Position numbers and translations under genes: made by a program. Source: a virus. Taken from it: a stretch of 23,466 bases of DNA. The notes below the pieces were generated by a model that was not told where the DNA came from, searched no databases, and was given only the letters and a program-made list of their open reading frames with translations. The DNA lies in the IMG/VR virus record IMGVR_UViG_3300032241_002755, positions 1 to 23,466 of that record. One strand, written 5' to 3'. Shown here piece by piece: positions 2,541 to 23,466 of the stretch. Within the stretch, counting starts at the first letter, position 1, and the number at the start of each line of letters is the position of its first letter.

Positions 2541-2753
2541 TTATCTCTTTAACAATTCTTGTAACATCTGTTTAATATCGCTCATGTCATTTTCTAATTT
2601 GTTTAAACGCTCAGATTCTAGTTTTCTATCCTCATAAAATTTCTTTTGTTTCTTATAGGCTTCGAGCTGCCTATTATCAACACTAAGAACTGCTCCACTT
2701 TTAGGATCTTTAACTAAACCTTCTATTTCTGTCTTCAGATATTTATTTGTCAT
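2541..2753 (-). CDS. Small coiled-coil protein, 70 residues
   Basis: The N-terminal half carries a motif seen in small conserved genes of T4-like phages: V-K-D-P-K-S-G-A-V-L-S-V-D-N-R-Q-L-E-A-Y-K-K. The C-terminal half (about 38-69) is a heptad-like helix with hydrophobic positions in L-E-S-E-R-L-N-K-L-E-N-D-M-S-D-I-K-Q-M-L-Q-E-L-L, suggesting a short coiled coil that would dimerise or trimerise. The product is charged and probably soluble, with no signal or membrane segment. The ATG overlaps the stop of the 1018-residue gene by four bases, and its TAA is followed one base later by the start of the 164-residue gene. The role is unknown; an assembly factor or a small structural linker for the surrounding fibre-type proteins is possible. 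Family resemblance is from memory and was not searched. Confidence 0.75.
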   Translation of the reverse strand: MTNKYLKTEIEGLVKDPKSGAVLSVDNRQLEAYKKQKKFYEDRKLESERLNKLENDMSDIKQMLQELLKR

Positions 2754-5700
2754 AATTGCAACGCTATCGCTCTAACATCATTAAGAATCGGTGGTTTTGA
2801 AGAATCATTCGATTGAACAATAACTTTAATTTGGAATTTTAAGAATGTAGAATACAACGCCGCAGAAGAATTCAAATATGAAAGCCCATTTGGAGTTAAA
2901 ATATAGGCGTTAGCGCCATTCACTGTTGAAGACCATGGTTTACCAACTGTCAATGAAGTACCATTAGCAACTGCAACAACAGTTTGTTGGTCGTTAGCAA
3001 TATCTAAAATGTTACCAGGCTGAACTTGAATATCAAAGTAAGTTGAATTCAAAGAATGAATCTGAGCTGGGGTTGTTGTCGGAGCAGTGATTGTAATTGG
3101 AGTTGTATTACCTTGTTGTGGATTCAACGTTATCGCGCTAGTGTTAGCTGTCGCAATGAAGTAATAAGTGTTACCAGTCAAACCAGTTAATGCCGTATTT
3201 CCAGTTGGAACGTAGTAATATATTCTTTGACCAACAGAAAATAAAGAATTTGCGGTTGAAATTAAAATAGAGTTAGATGAGTTGTTAACCGCAGTTGTAT
3301 TTGCGTTGAATGTTTGTGCAAACCCAGTAACAATATTTGTCGTAGAACTCGTAGAAACATTACCGCTTATTTGAGTTTGAGTGTTAGCAGATAACCATGG
3401 AGTTGTTGGCGGAACTGCTAAGAAATATGCATTCGCAGTATATGTGTAATTGAAAGAACTATCAATTGTTAAGTGAGTATTATCCGTAATACTTACAACT
3501 TTTCTAGTTGTTTCATTTGTAGTTGGCGTAGCAGCCATATTGATGAACCATCCAGGTTTTAATTCTTTTTGGAATAAAGTTCCTGTACCAACAATAGCCG
3601 TGCAAGAGGAAGTAGTTGTAATTGTTCCTGTTGTCGGAATCAAATTATAATATGGCGCAATACCAAATGTATATTCGTTTTGATTTGATGGATTACCTGG
3701 ATCAGAATAAAGCGTAACCGATTGGTTGATCAAAGGTGTCCAAGTTTTAGCGCTAATTGGATCAGAATCCTGACCATTCAAGAACTTGACCCAAACTTGA
3801 ATATCTGTTGCAGGCGGTCTCCAAGCTGTAAGGATAACTTGAAGGTCTTCAGCGTCTTGCCCTGGAGCGAGAGTTACAATTTCAGAAACGTATTTTGATT
3901 TCGAAGAGCCATCGTTGTAAAATTCTTCATAAATGAAACTAATCGGATCAACATCGTTAGAAATCAGCAATTCCTGATGGCGAACTGTATCAACCACTGG
4001 TGACAATAAAGAGCTATCTGTCACAAGGTTTGTGTGAACAGTCAGCGAGCTTTTACCAGACATATTGAGAACTTCATTTGTTCTACTTGCTACAATTCTT
4101 TCATAGTCATAAAAGTCTGTTTCTGTACCTGGAGTTACAGCGTATTCATTTGAATCTAATGTATAGTTGTTGTTTGTACCGCTGTAGCTTACATTAAGCA
4201 CTGTACCAGATGGAGCAATTGTTGCTAATTGTGGAACAAAAGAATTCATTCTTGGGTTGTATAACCCTAAAGTATTAGCAAAAGCGATTTGCGTCACGTT
4301 GTTTGGACCTGGCGAAGAAAGCACAGTAGCATTTGCAAATCTATGAATTTGTAAATTGTTAGCAGTTGTTGGCCAGTTGCCTGTTGAATTTGCAACGTAA
4401 ATAATTTCTTTAACGTCATCGTAATATTCAATGATACCAGAAATTTGCGTATTTGTTGTACCGCCCGTAGCATTGATATATGAGTTTGTTGACTGGAACA
4501 CATAATCGCCTGGCAAAATCGTAGAAGTAGTGCAAGCGTATCCAACGTTGTATACGTTAATAAAATCTGTTGGAGCATTGTTGAAATATGCATCGCCAGA
4601 TTGTGCGGTAAATTCGGCTCTATAAAGCTCAAACTTAATATACTCCGTTTGAAGCGCTGTCCATTCGCCAGTTGTTGCGCCATAAAAAGCAGTTCCAATA
4701 ACGGGTTGGCTATAAATTTGCGTACCAGTTACGAGATCTGTATCTCCAAGATTTGCGCTATAAACCCAATAACTTGGGTCGCCAGCATCTGGTTTAATAA
4801 CAACTGCATATTCAGTACCATTGTTCAAGAAAACAGGAGCTTGGAATTTAAAATTAGTTGGGAATTGAACCGAGTCATCAGTTGAATAAACATCTTGGAA
4901 ATATGATCCACCGCCTGCACCTGTAGTAACATTAAGTGGACCGCCATTATATTTTGGCGCGCCATTAATGTTAATAGCTACATCTAACCATGTTAAATGA
5001 ACTGTTGAGAATGGAATAACATTGGTTCCATCTGGGTAACCATTGTTTATTTCACAAATATAAACTGTTACGCCATTTTGGGCATTCGTTGGTTTTTGTT
5101 TAAAGAAAAGGTCAATTGATGTAACAAAAACACCTGCTTCGCCATTTGGTGTATTGATTGTAAGACCCTGAGCAATAGGCTCGTACCAACTACCAGTAAT
5201 TGTTGCTGTGTCGGGGTGAACAACGATATTAGTCGTTGTTGTTGAAGTGACAACAGTTTGGGATACAGGTACAACAGAAATTTCAGGCGTAATCGTTGTT
5301 AAAGTTACGGACTGTTTTGTAACACTAAGATTAGAAGCTGTAAATGTAGCAGAAGCTTTTGTTGTTATAGCATCAGCTGACAAAGTTAAGTTTTCAGTAT
5401 CAGCAATGGTTAATACTCTATCTCCAGTTTTAAAAGTAGCCGCTGGAACGTTAAACCAACCAGCAACAGTGCCGAATGCATCTGTTCTAATAGGATATCC
5501 ATATGGAAATGATTGAGTGATAGATTGATAATTAGAAGTATCTGCGATAACTCCGCCTTCAGCAAAACCTGAAGCGCAATATTGGTCAACCAAAACGCTA
5601 TCAAAGAAAACGTGAACAATTGTATTTGGTCTTAAATTATAAGCGTAAAAAGCAATAATTGTCGGAGCAATATATGGCTGAATAGAAACATCAGTTACAA

Positions 5701-5806
5701 AATTTCCTACAGTTTGTGTTGACGAATTATCGTTAACAACTAACTTATTACCAGATCTAGTTGCGATGTTAGTTAGCGTCGTATTAATGTTGTCGATTTC
5801 AGCCAC
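2750..5806 (-). CDS. Large virion structural protein, probably baseplate- or fibre-associated
   Basis: 1018 residues, mainly beta sequence. Residues about 205-400 form a domain starting W-Y-E-P-I-A-Q-G-L-T-I, with V-F-V-T-S-I-D-L-F-F-K and I-N-N-G-Y-P-D-G. That arrangement is common in structural proteins of marine T4-like phages. A middle region (565-690) has Y-D-Y-E-R-I-V-A-S-R-T-N-E and L-A-P-G-Q-D-A-E-D-L-Q-V-I-L-T-A-W-R-P. Residues 726-798 are a module also present twice in the preceding gene, and 812-970 look like another copy interrupted by an insert. The start is GTG at 5806-5804; AGGAG lies six bases upstream and overlaps the TAG stop of the previous gene. The stop overlaps the next ATG (ATGA). 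The position after gp8 suggests a peripheral wedge component, perhaps a functional counterpart of T4 gp10, but I see no specific gp10 motif. Confidence 0.72.
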   Translation of the reverse strand: MAEIDNINTTLTNIATRSGNKLVVNDNSSTQTVGNFVTDVSIQPYIAPTIIAFYAYNLRPNTIVHVFFDSVLVDQYCASGFAEGGVIADTSNYQSITQSFPYGYPIRTDAFGTVAGWFNVPAATFKTGDRVLTIADTENLTLSADAITTKASATFTASNLSVTKQSVTLTTITPEISVVPVSQTVVTSTTTTNIVVHPDTATITGSWYEPIAQGLTINTPNGEAGVFVTSIDLFFKQKPTNAQNGVTVYICEINNGYPDGTNVIPFSTVHLTWLDVAININGAPKYNGGPLNVTTGAGGGSYFQDVYSTDDSVQFPTNFKFQAPVFLNNGTEYAVVIKPDAGDPSYWVYSANLGDTDLVTGTQIYSQPVIGTAFYGATTGEWTALQTEYIKFELYRAEFTAQSGDAYFNNAPTDFINVYNVGYACTTSTILPGDYVFQSTNSYINATGGTTNTQISGIIEYYDDVKEIIYVANSTGNWPTTANNLQIHRFANATVLSSPGPNNVTQIAFANTLGLYNPRMNSFVPQLATIAPSGTVLNVSYSGTNNNYTLDSNEYAVTPGTETDFYDYERIVASRTNEVLNMSGKSSLTVHTNLVTDSSLLSPVVDTVRHQELLISNDVDPISFIYEEFYNDGSSKSKYVSEIVTLAPGQDAEDLQVILTAWRPPATDIQVWVKFLNGQDSDPISAKTWTPLINQSVTLYSDPGNPSNQNEYTFGIAPYYNLIPTTGTITTTSSCTAIVGTGTLFQKELKPGWFINMAATPTTNETTRKVVSITDNTHLTIDSSFNYTYTANAYFLAVPPTTPWLSANTQTQISGNVSTSSTTNIVTGFAQTFNANTTAVNNSSNSILISTANSLFSVGQRIYYYVPTGNTALTGLTGNTYYFIATANTSAITLNPQQGNTTPITITAPTTTPAQIHSLNSTYFDIQVQPGNILDIANDQQTVVAVANGTSLTVGKPWSSTVNGANAYILTPNGLSYLNSSAALYSTFLKFQIKVIVQSNDSSKPPILNDVRAIALQL
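2897..3373 (-). repeat. Beta module copy 4, apparently split by an insert (residues 812-970)
   Basis: Residues 812-833 (T-Q-I-S-G-N-V-S-T-S-S-T-T-N-I-V-T-G-F) look like the start of the module and 922-970 (Y-F-D-I-Q-V-Q-P-G-N-I-L-D-I, A-N-G-T-S-L-T-V, A-N-A-Y-I-L) like its end. Between them lies a segment with N-T-A-L-T-G-L-T-G-N-T-Y-Y-F-I-A, which is itself a motif known from other phage proteins. A nested insertion is the simplest reading, but it is made by eye. Confidence 0.45.
3413..3631 (-). repeat. Beta module copy 3 (residues 726-798 of the 1018-residue protein)
   Basis: Pattern T-G-T-I-T-T-T-S-S-C-T-A-I-V-G-T-G-T-L-F, then L-K-P-G-W-F-I, R-K-V-V-S-I-T-D-N-T-H-L-T-I-D-S-S-F, ending A-Y-F. 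It shows that the module is shared between adjacent genes. Confidence 0.6.
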
Positions 5807-5815
5807 TTAAATCTC

Positions 5816-8800
5816 CTAGGCGATATTTTGATTATTGTTCAACCAATTGTCCCAAGTAAGGAAAGGAACCCCAACTTTTGCATAGTTGACTTTCATAAAT
5901 CCATCTGAACCATAAACAACTGCATCTGGAATAATATTGAGAACTTCTTGAGCCATGACGCCAACGTAAAAAACATTACTCCAAAGATAACGGTATTTAT
6001 ACAGGTTCAAACCATTGATCAATTTACCAATTAAACTAATATCTTTCTTCAAACGAATATCAGAAATGTGAGTTAAATTATAACTGATATTACCAAAGGT
6101 TACGTTTGGATAAGCAGCTTGCAATTGCGCTAATGCATAGGCTTCAGCTTCTCCTCTTGTTATAGCGTTGTCTCCACCGCCACCGCCGTAGAAATTTCCC
6201 ATATTACCAAGATCCAACGTAATATTATTTACAGTTCCTTGCGTTACAACATCGACTGAAGTCGTTTGTGTTGTTTGCCAATCGCCCCAAATACATCCAA
6301 GAGGACTATTAGCAAACTCTTGCCATGGGGTCGCCGTATCAACAGTAATGTTAATAGAACCAGTGTTGTTTATGTCTTGGTGATTGTCATAAGCTGGGCA
6401 AAGGATAATTGTTCCATTCCAAGCTAAAGAAACATGTGCAGCTGATCTATATTTACTTGAATATGGTTGCACAAGAAATGCTTTTTCTGTATAAGGTAAT
6501 GTTATAACGCGACCAGTTTGCTGTACATTAGATGAAGACAAACTATTAAATTGCGTTATAGAACTATTTGCAAAACTGATGTTAATAACTTCTCTTGTAA
6601 TTTTCGGGCGAGCGACACCATTTTTTTGGTCGATTGCGATAGAAAATTCAGGATTAGAAACATCAGATAAAGTGAAGTCATTTAATGGATCTGCAAAGAT
6701 ACCATTTTTAAATCTATTCAAACCATTCGAATCGGTTACAGTCATAGAAGTAGTTTGTTGCTCGAGCGTAGACAAAGCAACATAGTATTCAAGGTTTGTA
6801 ACGCGATTATCAATTGTACCAATATCTTTCATCGTGTAACGACGATTTGTTACTGCTTTCGAAGAAACAGATGAAGAAGTATCGCGGATAAGATTTTTAG
6901 AAAGCTGATTGACAGGTAAAAGCTCATCGAGCTGATCTGTTGTCAATGATGGGAATGGCGGTATGCTAAGAACCGCTAAAGCCATACCGTTATCTGGATA
7001 CAAAGGATCTTGCGGAGATAAGCTAGAAACGCCTTCCTTCACCTTCAATACATTATCTGGAGTTATGAAAATAAGGTCATGTCTACCAAGATAAAATGTA
7101 TAATCAGATTGAAGGTTTTTACCGTATGATGGGAAATTCAACCCAGCAGAAGGAATTGACAAAGTTAAAGTGCTAGAAGGATTAACTGTCGCCGCTGAAA
7201 TTGAAGCTGTAACGCTAGATGTATTAGAAATATCAACATTACCAGTATCCGACGCCGTAGGAACAGAAGGTGTTCTAAAATCTACGTAATCTCTCAAAGC
7301 GTTTTTGTTACCATTGCTATCAATGTACAATGGCATATCTTTAGTTTGAATTGTCGTATTATATTTGTAATATGTATCAGCATTATAGCTAGAAATAAAT
7401 GCGCTAGTAACAGTTAATGATGATGAATTTGTAATAGCGGAAATAGTTTTATATTCATCGCCAACCTGAATCGAATCATTAGTATTAAATGTGCTGCTGA
7501 AAGAAGTTCCAGTACCTGTAACAGTGGTAGAACCAGCAACAATTGTTACAGTCCCAGGTAAACCATCGTTAATTGGGTAGGATTCAACAGTATAAAAACC
7601 TACGCCAGAATTTGTGTTTGTTGTAAAATAATCTAATTCAACAAGCAAAGTATTTGCAATAGTATGATCAAAACCAGCATTTGGATAAAGATAGCCATAA
7701 TCATAGTGTGTATCTTTTTGACCTGTGTCGTAAGTAAATAATTTAGTGTAATCCGTATTGTTTATAGAATATGAACCATCAAGCGCACCATAAACTGCTT
7801 TTACCTGATGAATATCAGAGAAACCTAAGCACCATGGACCTTTTGGACCTGCAGGGTTTGTATCAACGTTAATTTTAACAAATCTGTTTTTATTGATTTG
7901 TTTCTGAGCAGGTTGAGTTGTTGTTCTCAACACATCGAAAATAACATCAACTGCTAAAGATGAAGATGGAATTTCAGCGGTATTAATTGTAAACGATGTT
8001 GAGTTTGTAACCTGAATGTAAGATTTTGGACCAGTTACATTATATTGAATTGGTATAATTTTACCAGCTCTATATGTTTTATAATATGTGTCACCAGACT
8101 CTGTTGTATTAAATGGCGCATCAACAACCATCGAGCTCGCACCAGAAACAGATAAAACTGTTCTGATTGTACTTGCTGTAGAGTTCGTAACCTTAATTGT
8201 ATCATAAGGATTAAATTGCGTATTGAAAGAAGTTCCGCCAGAACCCGTAACTGTTGTACATGCACTCGAAATAGAAACAGTTCCTGACAACGCAGAAGAA
8301 TCAACATTTGCTGTTGCAACTAGCGTGAACGAAGAAGCAATAGAATCAGCAAGCTGTCCAACGCCATATGGTAAAATGTCTGTACCGCCTGGCTGAGAGC
8401 TTGTAATTGTATATGTTAAAGCCCCAGAAGTATTCATTGTTCCAGAAATTTTATTTCTGTAAGTATATTCTGTATGAAGGTTATTACTTGAATCTCTAAG
8501 ATTCATCAAACCAGGAACGCCAAATGTGTAAAGTTGATCTATTGATGTTGTGCTTTGCAAACCAGTTTTATAAAGGTCGCCAACGCCATGAGTCGAACCG
8601 CTCGAATAATATACTGATTGAACTTGATTTACGTTTTTATTGGCGTTCATATTTACGTTGAATACGTGCAAAAGATATGTTGCACTATTCGAACCAACAA
8701 GCCCGCCGTTGTAAACGAAACATCTAGCCAACGCCGTACCAATTTGATTGCCAATAGGCGTCAAAGCAGAAAAATATCTGTTCGTAACAGCCATTTGCGG

Positions 8801-10036
8801 CGTGTCATATAATTGAATTGTTTGTGCTTTAGTAAAATCAAAATCTCCAGCAACTTCATCAAGAATAAAATAACCACCGTAACCAAATGTAATTTGTTGT
8901 TCTAAATTGGTTTGAGTGTCTACGCCGCGACGAAGAGGATTGATGTATTGTGTGATATCAAAACCGACTGGGTAACCCTGAGCGTAACCACGACCTGGAT
9001 TTACTCTACCGATCATCGTGTTACCAGTGGGGGCGCTGATAATGCTGCTACCTGTTATTGATGTAACAGTGTCGACAATGAATGGATTAACAACGTAATT
9101 ACCTGCTTCATCGTAAATTCTAGAAGCAATTGCATCGCCAACGATAGAATAAAGGTTAGCAACTGAACCAGTTGACTTAATTAAAACGCCATAATTGTAA
9201 GAAGCAATCGCGTTGAAATTGTCAGTGTTACCTGTTTCAGGATCAATTGCAACCAACGTTGGTTCTATTTTTAAACGATAAGCGCCTGGAGCGTTTTGGT
9301 TTGGATAGCCGAGAGAATTATCAAGCAAAGAAGGATCTTGATTTTCAGTTACAATTGATTCAATAACTTTAAAACCGACAACATTGTTAGCTGCATATGT
9401 ACCATAAGCGTTAACAATACCGTATGTTGGTGTTAATACATTAACAAATGTACCATTCAAATAAGCGATACCAGCATCAACATGAATACCGTGAGCTGTG
9501 CCAGTCGTATTTTGGCCAGCCGTTGTATTGGCAAACGTATTAATTGTCGCAACAACATATCCGTTTGAAGGAACGATAATGTTGATCGTTTCATTATTTC
9601 CGAATACTTTTGCCGTATTTGATGTGCTATTAGTTGAACCTTTGTAGTTCAAATAAAGAATGTTTGTGTTTGGATAATTCGAAACTTGTCCGCTGTTTGC
9701 GTAAAGGATAGTAGCTGATAAGTTTGATGTTAAACTTACAGCGACAAGGTTACCAAATGTGTTTATTTGATATGCATTGTTGCTCGTGTCTCTATCAGAC
9801 AAACGAACAAAAGGAAGGATAGGGTCGTCTGTTATAGAACAACCAGAAACAATATCACCATTTTTAAACGCCCAGTTACCGAAGTTTTCAATTTGGTTTT
9901 GAAGGATTGATTGAACCTGAGTAAGCTCACGCGCCTGTACAGCTACAGAAGGTCTAAACAAAACACGATAATATTGATTGTTTGCATCGAAATCATCAAA
10001 ATAAGGGGCAACATCTAAATCTGTTTGAAGTGGCAT
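5816..10036 (-). CDS. Large DUF4815-type virion protein with C-terminal S74-like chaperone domain
   Basis: 1406 residues, the longest product here. The first 65 residues (Y-Y-R-V-L-F-R-P-S-V-A-V-Q-A-R-E-L-T-Q-V-Q, then N-Q-I-E-N-F-G) are characteristic of the DUF4815 family of phage structural proteins. Residues 584-655 and 827-891 are two copies of a beta module that also occurs in the neighbouring 1018-residue protein. A helical zone with N-R-V-T-N-L-E-Y-Y-V-A-L-S-T-L-E-Q-Q at about 1077-1095 could trimerise. A glycine-rich stretch (1283-1288) precedes the C-terminal domain, which begins S-D-I-R-L-K-K-D (1325-1332) and contains Y-K-Y-R-Y-L and V-G-V-M-A-Q-E-V-L-N. These are marks of peptidase S74 intramolecular chaperones, with Ser1325 and Lys1330 spaced as in the known Ser-Lys dyad. 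It is likely a trimeric baseplate or fibre-attachment protein; its place in the particle is inferred. Confidence 0.82.
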   Translation of the reverse strand: MPLQTDLDVAPYFDDFDANNQYYRVLFRPSVAVQARELTQVQSILQNQIENFGNWAFKNGDIVSGCSITDDPILPFVRLSDRDTSNNAYQINTFGNLVAVSLTSNLSATILYANSGQVSNYPNTNILYLNYKGSTNSTSNTAKVFGNNETINIIVPSNGYVVATINTFANTTAGQNTTGTAHGIHVDAGIAYLNGTFVNVLTPTYGIVNAYGTYAANNVVGFKVIESIVTENQDPSLLDNSLGYPNQNAPGAYRLKIEPTLVAIDPETGNTDNFNAIASYNYGVLIKSTGSVANLYSIVGDAIASRIYDEAGNYVVNPFIVDTVTSITGSSIISAPTGNTMIGRVNPGRGYAQGYPVGFDITQYINPLRRGVDTQTNLEQQITFGYGGYFILDEVAGDFDFTKAQTIQLYDTPQMAVTNRYFSALTPIGNQIGTALARCFVYNGGLVGSNSATYLLHVFNVNMNANKNVNQVQSVYYSSGSTHGVGDLYKTGLQSTTSIDQLYTFGVPGLMNLRDSSNNLHTEYTYRNKISGTMNTSGALTYTITSSQPGGTDILPYGVGQLADSIASSFTLVATANVDSSALSGTVSISSACTTVTGSGGTSFNTQFNPYDTIKVTNSTASTIRTVLSVSGASSMVVDAPFNTTESGDTYYKTYRAGKIIPIQYNVTGPKSYIQVTNSTSFTINTAEIPSSSLAVDVIFDVLRTTTQPAQKQINKNRFVKINVDTNPAGPKGPWCLGFSDIHQVKAVYGALDGSYSINNTDYTKLFTYDTGQKDTHYDYGYLYPNAGFDHTIANTLLVELDYFTTNTNSGVGFYTVESYPINDGLPGTVTIVAGSTTVTGTGTSFSSTFNTNDSIQVGDEYKTISAITNSSSLTVTSAFISSYNADTYYKYNTTIQTKDMPLYIDSNGNKNALRDYVDFRTPSVPTASDTGNVDISNTSSVTASISAATVNPSSTLTLSIPSAGLNFPSYGKNLQSDYTFYLGRHDLIFITPDNVLKVKEGVSSLSPQDPLYPDNGMALAVLSIPPFPSLTTDQLDELLPVNQLSKNLIRDTSSSVSSKAVTNRRYTMKDIGTIDNRVTNLEYYVALSTLEQQTTSMTVTDSNGLNRFKNGIFADPLNDFTLSDVSNPEFSIAIDQKNGVARPKITREVINISFANSSITQFNSLSSSNVQQTGRVITLPYTEKAFLVQPYSSKYRSAAHVSLAWNGTIILCPAYDNHQDINNTGSINITVDTATPWQEFANSPLGCIWGDWQTTQTTSVDVVTQGTVNNITLDLGNMGNFYGGGGGDNAITRGEAEAYALAQLQAAYPNVTFGNISYNLTHISDIRLKKDISLIGKLINGLNLYKYRYLWSNVFYVGVMAQEVLNIIPDAVVYGSDGFMKVNYAKVGVPFLTWDNWLNNNQNIA
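7364..7558 (-). repeat. Beta module copy 2 (residues 827-891 of the 1406-residue protein)
   Basis: Pattern G-T-V-T-I-V-A-G-S-T-T-V-T-G-T-G-T-S-F, then F-N-T-N-D-S-I-Q-V-G, S-A-I-T-N-S-S-S-L-T-V-T-S-A-F, ending D-T-Y-Y-K. It closely parallels copy 1 in the same protein. Confidence 0.65.
8072..8287 (-). repeat. Beta module copy 1 (residues 584-655 of the 1406-residue protein)
   Basis: Pattern G-T-V-S-I-S-S-A-C-T-T-V-T-G-S-G, then F-N-T-Q-F-N-P-Y-D-T-I-K-V, R-T-V-L-S-V-S-G-A-S-S-M-V-V-D-A-P-F, ending D-T-Y-Y-K. The same order of motifs occurs at 7364-7558 and 3413-3631. Such modules are common in phage virion proteins and probably form an independent beta domain. Confidence 0.65.
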
Positions 10037-18546: not shown

Positions 18547-18651
18547 TTATCCCCCGATGAATACGTTAGAAGAACCAGAACCACAAAAAGTGTAACCAGC
18601 GAGCGCATCACCAATTCTACCAGCACCAAGTCCATTAACTCTTACAGTCAT
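18547..18651 (-). CDS. PAAR-like spike-tip protein, 34 residues
   Basis: A very short open frame of 34 codons plus TAA. It starts MTVRVNGLGAGRIGD and ends G-S-S-N-V-F-I-G-G. The G-x-G-R-I-G-D block and the closing G-S-x-N-V-F-x-G block match the repeated PAAR pattern of spike-tip proteins (T4 gp5.4 and type VI secretion tips), and small PAAR-like genes of this form occur in T4-like phages. It would sharpen and cap the beta-helical needle. It holds about one third of a normal PAAR domain, with no histidine and a single cysteine (Cys23), whereas classical PAAR proteins bind zinc through histidines and a cysteine. The start ATG overlaps the preceding stop (ATGA), and the TAA is followed at once by the gp25 ribosome spacer and GTG. 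Position between spike and gp25 supports the assignment. Confidence 0.8.
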   Translation of the reverse strand: MTVRVNGLGAGRIGDALAGYTFCGSGSSNVFIGG

Positions 18652-18845
18652 TTAGTTTCTCTTTTTAGAAGATCTTGTAACTTTTGCCCCCACTGATCAA
18701 TTTCCTCATGTTGTTCGTCAGTATGTGGACCATCAGGTATTTCTGGTTTAAATTCAATCACTCTATTAAATGTTTCAGGTATATCTTCATATTTAGTGTA
18801 TGTTTCCAAAACACCATTAACAATTAAAACAAATTTGTGAGCCAT
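18648..18845 (-). CDS. Hypothetical 65-residue protein between spike and PAAR-like genes
   Basis: I do not recognise this protein. It begins with a short beta-type stretch (K-F-V-L-I-V-N-G-V-L-E-T-Y) and continues with Y-E-D-I-P-E-T-F-N-R-V-I-E-F-K-P-E-I-P. It ends in a charged, probably helical tail (D-E-Q-H-E-E-I-D-Q-W-G-Q-K-L-Q-D-L-L-K-R). There is no signal peptide or membrane segment. Its ATG directly abuts a perfect 20-base palindrome that contains its ribosome binding site and the stop codon of the spike gene. Its own stop overlaps the PAAR-like start (ATGA). Such tight linkage suggests stoichiometric expression with spike and tip, for example as a small assembly factor or tip accessory, but that is inference from position alone. 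The coding call is supported by the overlaps and by uniform strand. Confidence 0.72.
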   Translation of the reverse strand: MAHKFVLIVNGVLETYTKYEDIPETFNRVIEFKPEIPDGPHTDEQHEEIDQWGQKLQDLLKRETK

Positions 18846-18865
18846 AATTTATCCTAGGATAAATT
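18846..18865 (-). promoter_or_regulatory. Perfect 20-base palindrome covering stop codon and ribosome site
   Basis: The sequence AATTTATCCTAGGATAAATT is its own reverse complement. In its centre the TAG stop of the spike gene (18856-18854) overlaps the AGGA ribosome site (18855-18852) of the 65-residue gene, whose ATG begins at the very next base after the palindrome. In RNA the AGGA could pair with the UCCU of its own arm or of another transcript. This is consistent with initiation that depends on ribosomes finishing the spike gene. The coupling is inference. Confidence 0.55.
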
Positions 18866-19750
18866 GATTATAGCAGCTAGAGCTGTGATAGAAGCAGCAG
18901 TTAATGTAATAGACGATCCGCCAATAGACAATTCAATTTGACTTGGCTTCATAGAAATTGTTCCTGCGCCGCAAGTCATTGTAATAGAAGTTGGTGAATT
19001 AAAGGTCATCGCACTGATTGACTTACCAGAAAGCGTCGATTGCGTGTTTAAAGACATCGCGCCAGTTGAATTCGCCGCTAAAGTAGAAACAGAATTGAAA
19101 GCCATAGCGCCAGTTGAATTGGCTGTAAACGATCCTTCTGTTACAATATAACCAGAGCCAGTAACATCAAAACTTAAATTGGCATTAATAATGTGACCTT
19201 CGTTGCCAGTAATATAAACAGCAAAATCTTGCTCCGAAACAAGCGTCATTACACCAGATGTGCTGATAGAATAATCGTTTGAAGCATAGTTATGAACACC
19301 GCCGTCAATCGTTAAGAAGGATTGGTCGCCTTGAACTATGTGATGTCCATCGCCGCCAGTCGTGATAACTTTGTGAGCTTGGCTAGTCGCGACAACTGTA
19401 ACGCCATCATGCGCGGAAGTATGATCGCCAGCATGCTCTTCAGCTTTACCGTTATTTGTGCTTAATCTTACACCGCCTCCGTAGTTTTCATCGGAGTTGT
19501 TAATAATTGTTTTTGTACTGTTATCTGCAGCGTATTTGTGACCGCCAACGATTACTTCATTTTTATTACCTTGAGCGTCAAACATCTCAGTTGAATAATT
19601 GCCATCAGAATTAACCTGAGCTTCGATTGTCATAATAGCTGATGGATCGAACGATGTCGCTTTATAATTACCGATAGGGTCTGTGTTTATGTTAACGAGA
19701 TAATCATCGCCTTGTTGCGCATGATCGTCTATTCTTACATTATCTACCAT
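18854..19750 (-). CDS. Central spike beta-helix protein (gp5 C-terminal-like)
   Basis: This 298-residue protein corresponds to the needle part of T4 gp5. The C-terminus has the typical spike ending S-Q-I-E-L-S-I-G-G-S-S-I-T-L-T-A-A. Before it, residues 206-253 are three consecutive 16-residue repeats (STLAANSTGAMSLNTQ type), as expected for a triple-stranded beta-helix. Residues 105-155 are rich in histidine (A-E-E-H-A-G-D-H-T-S-A-H-D, then G-D-G-H-H). The start is a choice: a GTG at 19753 would add one residue, but GGAGG at 19755-19759 is one base from that GTG and four from the ATG at 19750, so I use the ATG. The stop of the preceding gene overlaps it (TGATG). The PAAR-like protein encoded just downstream is the likely tip. 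Beta-helix assignment rests on repeats and context. Confidence 0.78.
   Translation of the reverse strand: MVDNVRIDDHAQQGDDYLVNINTDPIGNYKATSFDPSAIMTIEAQVNSDGNYSTEMFDAQGNKNEVIVGGHKYAADNSTKTIINNSDENYGGGVRLSTNNGKAEEHAGDHTSAHDGVTVVATSQAHKVITTGGDGHHIVQGDQSFLTIDGGVHNYASNDYSISTSGVMTLVSEQDFAVYITGNEGHIINANLSFDVTGSGYIVTEGSFTANSTGAMAFNSVSTLAANSTGAMSLNTQSTLSGKSISAMTFNSPTSITMTCGAGTISMKPSQIELSIGGSSITLTAASITALAAIINLS
18992..19135 (-). repeat. Three tandem 16-residue repeats in the spike
   Basis: Spike residues 206-221, 222-237 and 238-253 repeat on a 16-residue period with consensus S-T-L-x-A-N-S-T-G-A-M-x-x-N-x-x. Alternating small and hydrophobic residues fit successive strands of a trimeric beta-helix. 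Confidence 0.7.
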
Positions 19751-21093
19751 CACACCTCCACTGGATTATTATAAGAAGAACCAACTGGCGTTGCTGTAAT
19801 CGTCGCGTTTGGTGTATTTACAGTAACTGGTTTACCAGTGGAAGCTGCTTGCACTGCTGCAGCATGAGCCGAGTTTTGAACCTGTTCGGATTGTGTTGAT
19901 CCGAACATATTAGCGATATTATAAATTTGCCTTGCAATACCTATAACCCTAGAAGCATTTTGCATAGAGGTATTAACAACGCCTGTATTCAAATATGATC
20001 TACCTAATCCACCAAGTAATCCGCCAATCAACCCACCCATTTGAGGTCCAAGGATTGTATTAAGATTACCAAGCAAAGAATTAATACCGAAGCCAATTAA
20101 CATTTGAAGCCCTTGGCTCTGAATGTTGGTATTATGATTGTTAATTATATTAGCCATTGCGGCTGGAGTTACATTATTAACGCCATTTGATTGTTGAATC
20201 AGATATAAAATATCTGCAGCCATCGTATCAGCTGTCGCGTTCGCAAGATCAATATGTTCAACACCAGTAAAAGAAGGCACATTTTGTAAACTCAATTGAA
20301 TATCGTTTGTTGTAACATAAACCTGCACATTACAAGTAACGCCATCAACTGTAATTTGTACATTCAACGTTGTTCCTGCAGGAGATACCGCGACCAAAGC
20401 GGCTAATGATGTTGGATCTAAACCGATTGTTGCGCCACCAACCGCAGCAGTAGCAGTTGTTGCCGCTTGAGTGCTTAACACGCCAGTTTTAGTATTAGCT
20501 AATAATCCATTGACTGCCTGATTAACAGCGCTATTTAAAAAACTGTTTAATTGCGATGACATTCCAGGCATTACGTTATTCATCAACTGTAAAACTGGAC
20601 CCAAACCAATTTGATTTGCTATATTTGTAAGAGCGCCGTTTAAAGCGCCAGACATAATACCAGAAATACCTGCAGGTGTTGCGAGACGACTCATCATTGT
20701 TAATGAGATCATTGCATCAAGAGCTTTTTTAACAGCGCCTGAAGTGTTGTTGGGATCGGCTGCTTTTATCGCCTGAAGAATAGAACCCGCTGGCTGCGAG
20801 GCAACTGTTGGGTTTGTAGATTGCTGATTCGCTGGAGCTTTAGAATCACTGTTATCTTTTGCTTTTTTTTGAGCGTTACTTTGGCTTCCCTCTTGCTTTT
20901 GTTGTTGCCCAAATGGAGCTGTGCCGTAGATATTATCCTCTTGATCTTTGTATAACAAATACTGCCTTGGTGATTTAACATTACCAAGAACAGCTGGATC
21001 GAGAGTCGCGCCCATTGGACCGCCTGGAGGCGAGCGATAAGTTCCGTCAATAGATCCTAATGGTTCAAGTGGCGTTTGTGTTAAGTCTGTCAT
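19750..21093 (-). CDS. Spike-associated protein between OB-fold and beta-helix (gp5 middle region, no lysozyme)
   Basis: I do not recognise a fold for most of these 447 residues. The first 60 look like the linker that follows a gp5 OB fold: proline/glycine-rich (S-P-P-G-G-P-M-G-A-T-L-D-P), then a charged Y-L-L-Y-K-D-Q-E-D. Residues 61-100 are a Gln/Lys/Ser/Asn low-complexity tract. Residues 103-205 are Ala/Leu/Met-rich and probably helical. About 235-275 contains a short beta segment (V-Q-I-T-V-D-G-V-T-C-N-V-Q-V-Y-V). Residues 330-366 are glycine-rich and hydrophobic, including MGGLIGGLLGGLGRS. The lysozyme motif of T4 gp5 (catalytic Glu, Asp and Thr in an E-G-x-x-x-x-x-Y-x-D-x-x-G context) is absent. 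Position between OB-fold and spike genes implies that it belongs to the central needle. It could alternatively be a tape-measure-like or membrane-active component. The function is inferred from context only. Confidence 0.6.
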   Translation of the reverse strand: MTDLTQTPLEPLGSIDGTYRSPPGGPMGATLDPAVLGNVKSPRQYLLYKDQEDNIYGTAPFGQQQKQEGSQSNAQKKAKDNSDSKAPANQQSTNPTVASQPAGSILQAIKAADPNNTSGAVKKALDAMISLTMMSRLATPAGISGIMSGALNGALTNIANQIGLGPVLQLMNNVMPGMSSQLNSFLNSAVNQAVNGLLANTKTGVLSTQAATTATAAVGGATIGLDPTSLAALVAVSPAGTTLNVQITVDGVTCNVQVYVTTNDIQLSLQNVPSFTGVEHIDLANATADTMAADILYLIQQSNGVNNVTPAAMANIINNHNTNIQSQGLQMLIGFGINSLLGNLNTILGPQMGGLIGGLLGGLGRSYLNTGVVNTSMQNASRVIGIARQIYNIANMFGSTQSEQVQNSAHAAAVQAASTGKPVTVNTPNATITATPVGSSYNNPVEV

Positions 21094-21096
21094 GTT

Positions 21097-21402
21097 TTAG
21101 CCCGTTGTTATACCAGCTTTATGCAAGCTGCCAAGAATTATTGGTATTTGTTTTGTTTCTGGATCAAGCCAAAAACCAACAACTGTCGTTCCTGGGAGGT
21201 AATGTGTTGTTGAACCAATACCATTCACTGAAGGTGAATTATTCATAACACAATGCGCCCATGGTAGATCTGTATCCTGTATAGGCGTATCATCGATATT
21301 ATGGTGGCCATGAACGATCACTTTCATTTTACCAGTTTTATCCGGATCACGAATGTCTCTAACTTCGCCTGTCCAAAAATTACCAAGTACCTGTACTGTC
21401 AT
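21097..21402 (-). CDS. 5: Spike base protein: stand-alone gp5-type OB-fold domain
   Basis: This 101-residue protein is almost entirely one gp5/VgrG-type OB-fold domain. Residues 9-34 read W-T-G-E-V-R-D-I-R-D-P-D-K-T-G-K-M-K-V, then H-G-H-H-N. DTDLPWAHCVMNNSP follows, then P-G-T-T-V-V-G-F-W-L-D and finally Q-I-P-I-I-L-G-S-L. In T4 this domain is the N-terminal part of gp5, where it sits in the gp27 ring. Here the gene stops directly after the fold (residues G-I-T-T-G), and the proline-rich linker that would follow in gp5 begins the next gene, three bases downstream. The start ATG is preceded by a GGGAG ribosome site that lies within the last codons of the hub gene. I see no frameshift signal or internal stop suggesting a recent break, so it looks like a genuine separate cistron. 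Confidence 0.85.
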   Translation of the reverse strand: MTVQVLGNFWTGEVRDIRDPDKTGKMKVIVHGHHNIDDTPIQDTDLPWAHCVMNNSPSVNGIGSTTHYLPGTTVVGFWLDPETKQIPIILGSLHKAGITTG

Positions 21403-21404
21403 AA

Positions 21405-22625
21405 TTAACTCCCGCTATAAGCGCCTTTGAGACACTCAAGGACACATATATGTCTCGGTTGAACACCTGGTTTACGAATTTGATGCTCTAGTTTTGCTAT
21501 CAACCATCTACCACTTGCTTGTGGATCTAATTGAGAATTTTGTGTACTTGCAGTAATTTGAGGGATATTACATTTAACTGTTTTACCAGCTTCAAGCAAT
21601 GGATCACCAAGAACAGTCATATGTAACAGCTGTTCCTGCATCTGAGCTAGGTTAACCATTTTATTCGGAACAGTTTCTGGCATGTAGCTCTTATTGATTT
21701 TTAGGTTTTGATTTGGGTGAATGAACCTCAACAAAGATCTATTAGCATTCGGAAACAAGTTTCTAAATGTATCGAGCGTAGTCATAACTATTTCGCCCAT
21801 TTCAGTAATACCATTTAAATTATTGAAATCCTGCTTACGATATTCGTTTGTATGTACATTAAACGTAGAAACACGCTGATTTAAAACGCCAGCTTTGATA
21901 CGATTCATTGCATCCATATTTTGCTGGATTTTCCAACCGATAATGTTATTGTCAATACTGTTGAAAATAGAACGACCGACTGTTGGATCTTGCGTGAGCT
22001 GCTTAACATCGCCCTCATTGAGCATTGCTTCTAGCGTTTTGAAAAAGAAACCAGAAGCCGTTTGCCAGAACATGTAGTTCGATGATTTGTATTGCGAAGA
22101 AACAGCTTCTTTTCTTAACATTTCGATAGCATGATACAATGGCTGATTTGCTATTTTTAAATTACGGGGAACATTAGTTTGTTCTGCAGTTATATTTGCC
22201 TGACTATTAAGCTTGCCGAATATATCAGTTACAATATCGGAAATATGAGTGTTGTAAGCTTTTTGAACGTAGTTTGCTTGGCCAGATAATACTTCTCTCG
22301 AAACACAAACAAGCTTGTAGGTTTTAGATTTCATAGACCCTTGAATACCAACGTCTTTGATGGTGTCTAAATGAAAGTTGTAGGAAGCTGTTCCGCCATT
22401 CGGTTTGGTGAATGCAAACTGAACTGATTCATCGCCAGCCAGCTGCAAATTACCTAGGTAATCTTTATCATCAAAAACTTCTATTTCCGCATGTACGCCT
22501 GGAGTGAAAATAGTCTCCAAAACAGAACATGAAAGAAAATTAGCTGCAGCATTCCAATTTCCCGATCTAGGGGAAATTATGTTAAATGTGCTGATTGCGA
22601 CGTCGCCTGGATTATAACCTGCCAT
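21405..22625 (-). CDS. Baseplate hub protein, gp27-like
   Basis: The 406-residue length is close to T4 gp27 (391), which forms the trimeric ring that carries the central spike and joins it to the tail tube. The N-terminal half contains a hub-type beta domain (residues about 28-110: L-E-T-I-F-T-P-G, then E-I-E-V-F-D-D-K-D, then S-V-Q-F-A-F), matching the gp27 scheme of a 'thematic failure' barrel repeated with helices between. A helical segment at 125-180 (L-Y-H-A-I-E-M-L-R-K-E-A) precedes F-W-Q-T-A-S-G-F-F-F, resembling gp27 F-V-W-Q-D. The C-terminal barrel (about 330-400) has L-H-M-T-V-L-G-D-P-L-L-E-A-G and ends G-R-W-L-I-A-K-L-E-H. The ATG overlaps the gp53 stop, and the OB-fold spike gene follows after two bases, which is the expected partner. 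It could equally be named a gpD-like tail protein of the same fold. Similarity is structural and by context, not a confirmed match. Confidence 0.72.
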   Translation of the reverse strand: MAGYNPGDVAISTFNIISPRSGNWNAAANFLSCSVLETIFTPGVHAEIEVFDDKDYLGNLQLAGDESVQFAFTKPNGGTASYNFHLDTIKDVGIQGSMKSKTYKLVCVSREVLSGQANYVQKAYNTHISDIVTDIFGKLNSQANITAEQTNVPRNLKIANQPLYHAIEMLRKEAVSSQYKSSNYMFWQTASGFFFKTLEAMLNEGDVKQLTQDPTVGRSIFNSIDNNIIGWKIQQNMDAMNRIKAGVLNQRVSTFNVHTNEYRKQDFNNLNGITEMGEIVMTTLDTFRNLFPNANRSLLRFIHPNQNLKINKSYMPETVPNKMVNLAQMQEQLLHMTVLGDPLLEAGKTVKCNIPQITASTQNSQLDPQASGRWLIAKLEHQIRKPGVQPRHICVLECLKGAYSGS

Positions 22626-23466
22626 TATTCACTCAATAGATTTTTTACTGATTTATTCAAATCATTTACAAAGGATGGGTTTAGAACATTCACGAATTTA
22701 TTTCCTTCATTTTTTTCAACTTCATAATCGTAATAATATACTGGTTCCCAATAAGAAATAACATCGCTCGGTATATTGTTAGCGATATATGTTACCTCTG
22801 TAACAACTGAGTTTGTACCGCTTTCTGTTCCATAAACGTAGCCAGTCCCAACAGTTCCGTTAACATGCTGTATTGTTAGTGTGCCATTTGTAGATAAAAC
22901 AACCTGCGCGTTCGCACCAGAACTCAAGGTAACAATTTCATTATTTACATAGCTATTTGCAGCAGCCTCGACAAAAAGATTAATCGTGAAATTGGTAGAA
23001 GATGTCCAATCTTTTTGTTTCCTAAAATAGTTAATTATAACGCTATTAACGCCATATTTTGGCTGCCAATATATTTGTTGATTCGGCGTCAAAGAATTAT
23101 AGGTGGTTACGCTGATTGATGGTTGATCGACCCAATTGTTTCTATAATACATAACCTTGTTTGTCGCTGCAGCCAATGAACCATACTTGCTTTTGATATA
23201 ATTGGTAAATTCAGAATCGTTCAAATACCACTCATAATAAGGGTCTACAATTTGATTCGAAATGTAGATCATCCAGCTCGTGTAAGGATCATTATAAGCA
23301 GAAAATGCTAATTGATCTGGTCTGATGCCATTTCTAATATCTTGCGGATAATAAACATATGGATTTCTAATAAGGTTATTAGCAATGACAACGCGCTCTG
23401 TAATGTCAACGACAGCGTTGTTAGAGTAACTTATGATATTAAATTTGTCGAAATACGTTGTTGACA
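22625..23466 (-). CDS. 53: Baseplate wedge protein, T4 gp53-like (5' end outside window)
   Basis: The reading frame is open to the right-hand edge, so the N-terminus is missing; 280 residues and the stop are visible. An internal ATG at 23272 gives a 215-residue product, but coding clearly continues upstream of it with Y-F-D-K-F, then V-V-D-I-T-E-R-V and the run NDPYTSWMIYISNQIVDPYY. That is the gp53 pattern of an early Y-F-D-K-F followed by a W-x-x-Y-x-x-N-x-I-x-D-P-Y segment. Probably only a few residues are missing. In T4, gp53 is a small wedge protein that helps lock the wedges round the hub. A beta-rich insert (about residues 170-225 of the visible part) precedes a C-terminus with Y-Y-D-Y-E-V-E-K-N-E. 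At 280 or more residues it is longer than T4 gp53 (about 196). The stop overlaps the next start by one base (TAATG). The family call rests on recalled motifs and gene order. Confidence 0.82.
   Translation of the reverse strand, partial: STTYFDKFNIISYSNNAVVDITERVVIANNLIRNPYVYYPQDIRNGIRPDQLAFSAYNDPYTSWMIYISNQIVDPYYEWYLNDSEFTNYIKSKYGSLAAATNKVMYYRNNWVDQPSISVTTYNSLTPNQQIYWQPKYGVNSVIINYFRKQKDWTSSTNFTINLFVEAAANSYVNNEIVTLSSGANAQVVLSTNGTLTIQHVNGTVGTGYVYGTESGTNSVVTEVTYIANNIPSDVISYWEPVYYYDYEVEKNEGNKFVNVLNPSFVNDLNKSVKNLLSE

Follow-up and report, generated by a model that had tools for sequence, protein, structure and literature searches.

The central spike of phage T4 is made from a single gene, gp5, whose product is cleaved after synthesis at Ser351/Ala352, between lysozyme and needle, to give the complex (gp27-gp5*-gp5C)3 (PMC3004832). 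How would a T4-like phage cross the cell envelope if its gp5 were spread over three genes, none of them encoding a recognizable lysozyme? The question is raised by the window analysed here, the 23,466-nucleotide stretch of IMG/VR record IMGVR_UViG_3300032241_002755, on the minus strand of which the gp5-type spike is encoded by three separate, intact ORFs lying between a gp27-type hub gene and gp25. We consider it probable that these genes specify a T4-like central spike with gp5 in three cistrons, in which the middle protein is structural and the wall is cut by another tail protein.

All the genes concerned are on the minus strand. At the contig end lies a gp53 baseplate wedge gene (22625-23464), recognized by PF11246 and by the gene order of relatives, followed by the gene for the 406-aa hub protein (21405-22625). 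This counterpart of gp27 matches PHROG 350 'tail protein' (E 5.6e-59), is encoded immediately 5' of the spike genes, and has a homologue in phiM12 for which the phage's record notes an HHpred match to gp27. Next come the OB-fold module of gp5 as a gene of its own (21097-21402, 101 aa), the middle protein (19750-21093, 447 aa) and the needle (18854-19753). Three nucleotides separate the OB stop from the middle ATG, and the TGA stop of the middle gene overlaps the needle start, where the junction reads GGAGG-TGTG-ATG. A GGGAG lies six bases 5' of the OB ATG and a GGAGG four bases 5' of the ATG at 19750; because of the latter spacing, this ATG (298 aa) is a better needle start than the GTG at 19753 (299 aa). 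The three genes are packed for coupled translation, and the ORFs agree with the first-pass annotation, which had described cistrons of 101, 447 and 298 aa, each with its own start and an intact stop.

One could suppose that the three frames are what sequencing errors or a recent mutation have left of a single gp5 gene, given that T4 gp5 is one chain and that the junctions in the window are only a few bases wide. However, the same breaks, with proper starts, recur in another 20 contigs drawn from many metagenomes. When all fetched loci were searched with family profiles, at least 20 IMG/VR contigs besides the window were found to carry the three genes complete, unfused and in the order of the window, a count of distinct contigs from which those losing a gene at the contig end were left out; one further contig has the three-gene order with the needle interrupted by the contig end, and several others lose one gene in this way. 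The middle gene sits between the OB and needle genes wherever all three occur, and middle and needle are joined in none of the contigs scanned. Among close relatives, dN/dS is 0.03-0.26 for OB, middle and needle. As the same split is found in 20 contigs and is under purifying selection, a sequencing error or fresh frameshift is refuted, in line with the earlier view that the split is stable; with start signals also present at OB and needle, we give the broken-gene explanation practically no chance.

The OB protein scores 30.8 bits against PF06714 in Pfam (cut-off 25) and matches gp5 PHROGs (phrog_430, E 1.1e-21), and the OB-family alignment, used as a profile, retrieves T4 gp5 from the PDB with E 7.6e-5. 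The N-terminal OB fold of the T4 gp5 family is present in the window, in a gene that adjoins the gp27-like hub gene. By sequence the needle of the window is weak, while that of the relative L036 matches DUF2345 at 35.7 bits, above the cut-off. For a monomer model of the window needle (pLDDT 64.5), five of the top six Foldseek matches in the PDB are T4 gp5 and the other is the Klebsiella phage KP1 spike, with VgrG next; the best E obtained with this monomer is 8.7e-4, which is only moderately significant. The predicted monomer points to a C-terminal beta-helical needle as in the T4 gp5 family, of gp5C/VgrG type.

What joins the middle protein to gp5 is a fusion in the related contig L038, where OB and middle form a single 549-aa ORF, residues 12-110 belonging to the OB family and 116-547 to the middle family. 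Because of this fusion, the middle protein can be identified as the gp5 region after the OB fold, present here as its own cistron; gp5 in one chain is seen in neither the window nor the 20 relatives, and L038 joins OB and middle. The fusion and the OB and needle domain identities together uphold the proposal that gp5 function is divided over three cistrons. It had also been proposed that the middle protein begins with the gp5-type linker, which holds by position, as in the L038 fusion, but not by profile: the PF06714 match stops short of the middle protein, with no extension into the 447-aa chain. The next ORF after the fusion in L038, in the needle's place, encodes a collagen-repeat protein (L038:5210-6994).

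The 447-aa protein has no match in Pfam, PHROGs, NCBIfam or PDB sequences, and tblastn with two family members found none in cultured phages. Its family is present in more than 20 contigs, and identity to relatives is 23-37% (37% to L037 and 32% to L038, as assigned by row order in the alignment). Among 18 aligned members, ten columns are invariant (P114, G142, G149, G163, G204, P273, E279, G334, P350 and F397). E279 is the sole invariant charged residue, H280 is absent from L038, and neither a catalytic constellation nor an invariant Cys/His set is found. Past residue 100, charged residues make up 5.8% of the window protein and Gly/Ala/Ser 31%. A Gly/Ala/Ser-rich family of low charge with one invariant acidic residue is therefore unlikely to be an enzyme. 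An AlphaFold2 model built from 16 sequences is mostly helix, with a mean pLDDT of 41, and gave no meaningful fold match in Foldseek; since the predicted model is poor, the role we assign to the protein rests on position and composition. A 19-residue hydropathy scan detects no transmembrane helix in the window protein and one or two marginal ones in the middle proteins of some relatives. Homology to cyanophage gp5 middle regions or to Melnitz or LG08 proteins was considered and rejected, as hhalign and HMM searches gave no significant match. Most likely, the middle protein occupies the lysozyme-domain position as a structural module rather than an enzyme.

The first-pass annotation had described the spike as lysozyme-free, and this is confirmed: no lysozyme, amidase, peptidase or other peptidoglycan-hydrolase profile matches OB, middle or needle, and the search of the 447-aa protein against lysozyme, peptidase and amidase families that it had suggested returned no matches. 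The PF00959 lysozyme domain with the Glu/Asp/Thr triad, as in T4 gp5, is without a match in the window, and no PF00959 match exceeds the cut-off in the window or in any of eight related records; a weak match in G004, under the cut-off and in a protein unlike lysozyme, was disregarded.

Related contigs indicate where the enzyme may be instead. All ten that reach the site encode, in a divergent tail operon upstream, a 548-950-aa protein with a hydrolase domain (nine M15 peptidases and one BPSL0067-like match under the cut-off); the other related contigs stop short of it. In the 167-kb G002, the divergent operon upstream of gp48-gp53-hub encodes, in this order, a gp54-like tube protein, a gp26-like hub protein, a 976-aa protein that takes the tape-measure position and a 751-aa protein bearing Peptidase_M15_4. 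This domain (PF13539) is over the cut-off in eight related records: G002, and G001, G004, G005, G007, G009, G012 and G014, in which contig coordinates place the gene upstream on the opposite strand. The zinc-ligand motifs S-x-H-x-x-G-x-A-x-D and D-P-M-H-F are intact in all five aligned M15 proteins (G001, G002, G004, G005 and G007). At the same place G003 has PF08291 (Peptidase_M15_3) and G006 a BPSL0067-like stretch under the cut-off, of a kind also present in G004. The window ends at 23466, at the start of gp53, before the position of this gene in relatives, and we infer that the window phage carries a hydrolase gene beyond the contig end. The choice originally posed, between crossing the envelope with no spike-borne lysozyme and a different activity in the middle protein, is incomplete: in relatives the murein hydrolase domain resides on a different tail protein, which makes a third possibility. 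The dilemma is best resolved by such a hydrolase, seen in relatives and presumed for the window phage.

With T4 gp5 (PDB 1K28, 1PDL, 1WTH and 2Z6B) the window spike shares an OB fold on a gp27-type hub, a beta-helical needle and the order of the modules. It differs in being encoded by three genes rather than one, and in its middle protein, which has no known domain and is unrelated to the PF00959 lysozyme of T4. As T4 gp5 is cut between lysozyme and needle, the boundary between the middle and needle genes mimics the processed state (PMC3004832).

Other T4-like phages were suspected of having a lysozyme-free gp5, and a survey of gp5 architecture finds both this and two-cistron gp5 already in sequenced isolates. 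By Pfam, gp5 is lysozyme-free in S-SSM5, S-RIM50, S-CAM1, ACG-2014j, Bellamy, HTVC008M, Mosig and DLP6, while other middle domains are Phage_lysozyme2 in Cr30 and phage OC, GH19 in BUCT-ZZ01 and CHAP in LG08. Two-gene spikes occur in S-CAM1, ACG-2014j, Melnitz and phiM12. The cyanophage proteins resemble those of the window in having an OB fold and no hydrolase in the chain by Pfam, S-SSM5 and S-RIM50 with one chain and S-CAM1 and ACG-2014j with two genes, the separate downstream gene of the latter pair, annotated as hub lysozyme, being most likely the needle. In S-SSM5, S-CAM1 and ACG-2014j the gene immediately preceding that of the hub encodes a large protein, and it is this protein that bears a hydrolase domain (lysozyme, glucosaminidase or Hydrolase_2). 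Unlike in the window, cyanophage OB is fused to the middle region, which has no detectable kinship to the window family. Methylophilales phage Melnitz and Sinorhizobium phage phiM12 also place spike function on two genes, but their hydrolase domains have not left the spike: in Melnitz both proteins carry a VanY-like domain, and the phiM12 record notes gp5 as a muramidase and the next gene as an M15 peptidase. The pelagiphages HTVC008M and Mosig and Stenotrophomonas phage DLP6 are T4-like with a lysozyme-free gp5, which in contrast to the window is a short single chain of 305-361 aa with OB and a needle-like region and no middle protein.

A further comparison is offered by cyanophage A-1(L), whose genome is not known to be T4-like. 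Its spike is lysozyme-free, and its hub has tested peptidase and endoglucanase activity (PDB 8KEA; PMC10966104). Wall-cutting activity is thus shown on a baseplate protein other than the spike (PMC10966104), an arrangement that the window family would resemble; in A-1(L), however, it is the hub that contains the inserted enzyme domains, and the spike is one chain. The principle of a lysozyme-free or multi-gene gp5 is thus already known or visible in annotations, whereas by our comparisons a gp5 in three genes that includes this middle family is found only in environmental contigs, and a search of the open-licence literature yielded no account of such a three-way division. In a different T4-like lineage (L063:4959-7378, with L065 similar), one gene combines OB with Phage_lysozyme2 and the following one encodes an Amidase_2 protein, a multi-gene spike with two wall enzymes.

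Several other readings of the middle protein and of wall-cutting must be weighed against a structural module. Its location in the exact slot of the T4 gp5 lysozyme, which elsewhere holds Phage_lysozyme2, GH19, M15 or CHAP domains, and the conservation of the family under selection would suit an unrecognized peptidoglycan-degrading fold doing the job of lysozyme. Yet the protein matches no profile, is low in charge and Gly/Ala-rich, and has in E279 its only invariant charged residue, with H280 gone in L038 and no invariant Cys/His set; relatives moreover have hydrolase domains elsewhere, and we regard such an enzyme as very unlikely. A needle assembly factor or chaperone, absent from the mature spike, is improbable: it would accord with a separate, poorly conserved gene (23-37% identity) whose product cannot be aligned to cyanophage gp5 middle regions, but in L038 the protein is fused to OB and would there be part of the hub, and its gene keeps its place between OB and needle.

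Alternatively, the needle might suffice to cross the wall, with no hydrolase in the virion at all. None of the window tail genes tested has a hydrolase profile, and the one-chain gp5 of HTVC008M, Mosig and DLP6 is likewise without a hydrolase profile match; the contig, however, stops at gp53, short of the site where ten out of ten covering relatives carry a hydrolase domain, and we find this reading unlikely as well. A more speculative version of the separate-enzyme arrangement, rather doubtful in our estimation, would see in the middle protein a new kind of module for penetrating the envelope. A helical trimer, low in charge and rich in glycine, would fill the lysozyme slot, enter the periplasm together with the needle, and insert into or open the inner membrane; cutting of the wall would fall to a separate peptidase of the tape-measure side, one that can be swapped.

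In the structural reading that we favour, three OB proteins would sit on the gp27-like hub trimer, with three middle proteins next and a needle trimer at the tip, the OB, middle and needle chains binding one another non-covalently. Peptidoglycan would most likely be cut by the tail protein of the divergent operon encoded near the tape-measure position, an M15 peptidase in most relatives. The presence of all three spike chains and of the hydrolase in the virion, and the stoichiometry and order of chains in the spike, are what we infer from the genes.

These comparisons suggest that phages rearrange their envelope-piercing machine freely, with a three-gene, enzyme-free spike here and the enzyme of relatives in a nearby tail-operon gene. 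The cistrons for OB, middle and needle act as units that can be exchanged, and the enzyme that cuts the wall shifts among spike, hub and tape-measure-side proteins. As the boundary between OB and middle varies between relatives (the L038 fusion), the assembly rules of a spike made of separate chains are directly testable. There is also a practical consequence: annotation pipelines label gp5 OB proteins 'baseplate hub and tail lysozyme', which is often wrong, both for this family and for many cultured T4-like phages.

Some neighbouring and distant genes deserve mention. On the 3' side of the needle a conserved 65-aa protein (18648-18845, minus strand; phrog_24555, E 2.1e-12) is found at the same place in L015, L023 and L026, and is kept between the needle and PAAR/gp25 in several relatives. 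Its stop is overlapped by a 34-aa ORF (18547-18651, minus strand), MTVRVNGLGAGRIGDALAGYTFCGSGSSNVFIGG, which has no Pfam match of its own and, compared by eye with the proteins of L004, L006, L015 and L026, resembles the C-terminal third of relatives' PAAR tip protein. This PAAR-C-terminus-like ORF is all that the window has of a PAAR domain capping the needle; L016, L021, L024, L036 and L041 have no PAAR gene here and a longer needle C-terminus instead. A second large structural gene also appears to be divided in the window: PHROG 358, which has 2056 positions, matches the products of two neighbouring genes at 2750-10036 on the minus strand. The 1406-aa product, which contains DUF4815 and a Peptidase_S74 chaperone domain, covers positions 1-1154 of the PHROG, and the 1018-aa product covers positions 1318-1589. 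Finally, among the genes of the G002 record are those for a porin of the Porin_2 family (155 bits) and for a second outer-membrane beta-barrel protein (L076:15689-17083 and L081:18488-19039), the former presumably indicating an alphaproteobacterial host; HTVC008M likewise carries an annotated porin.
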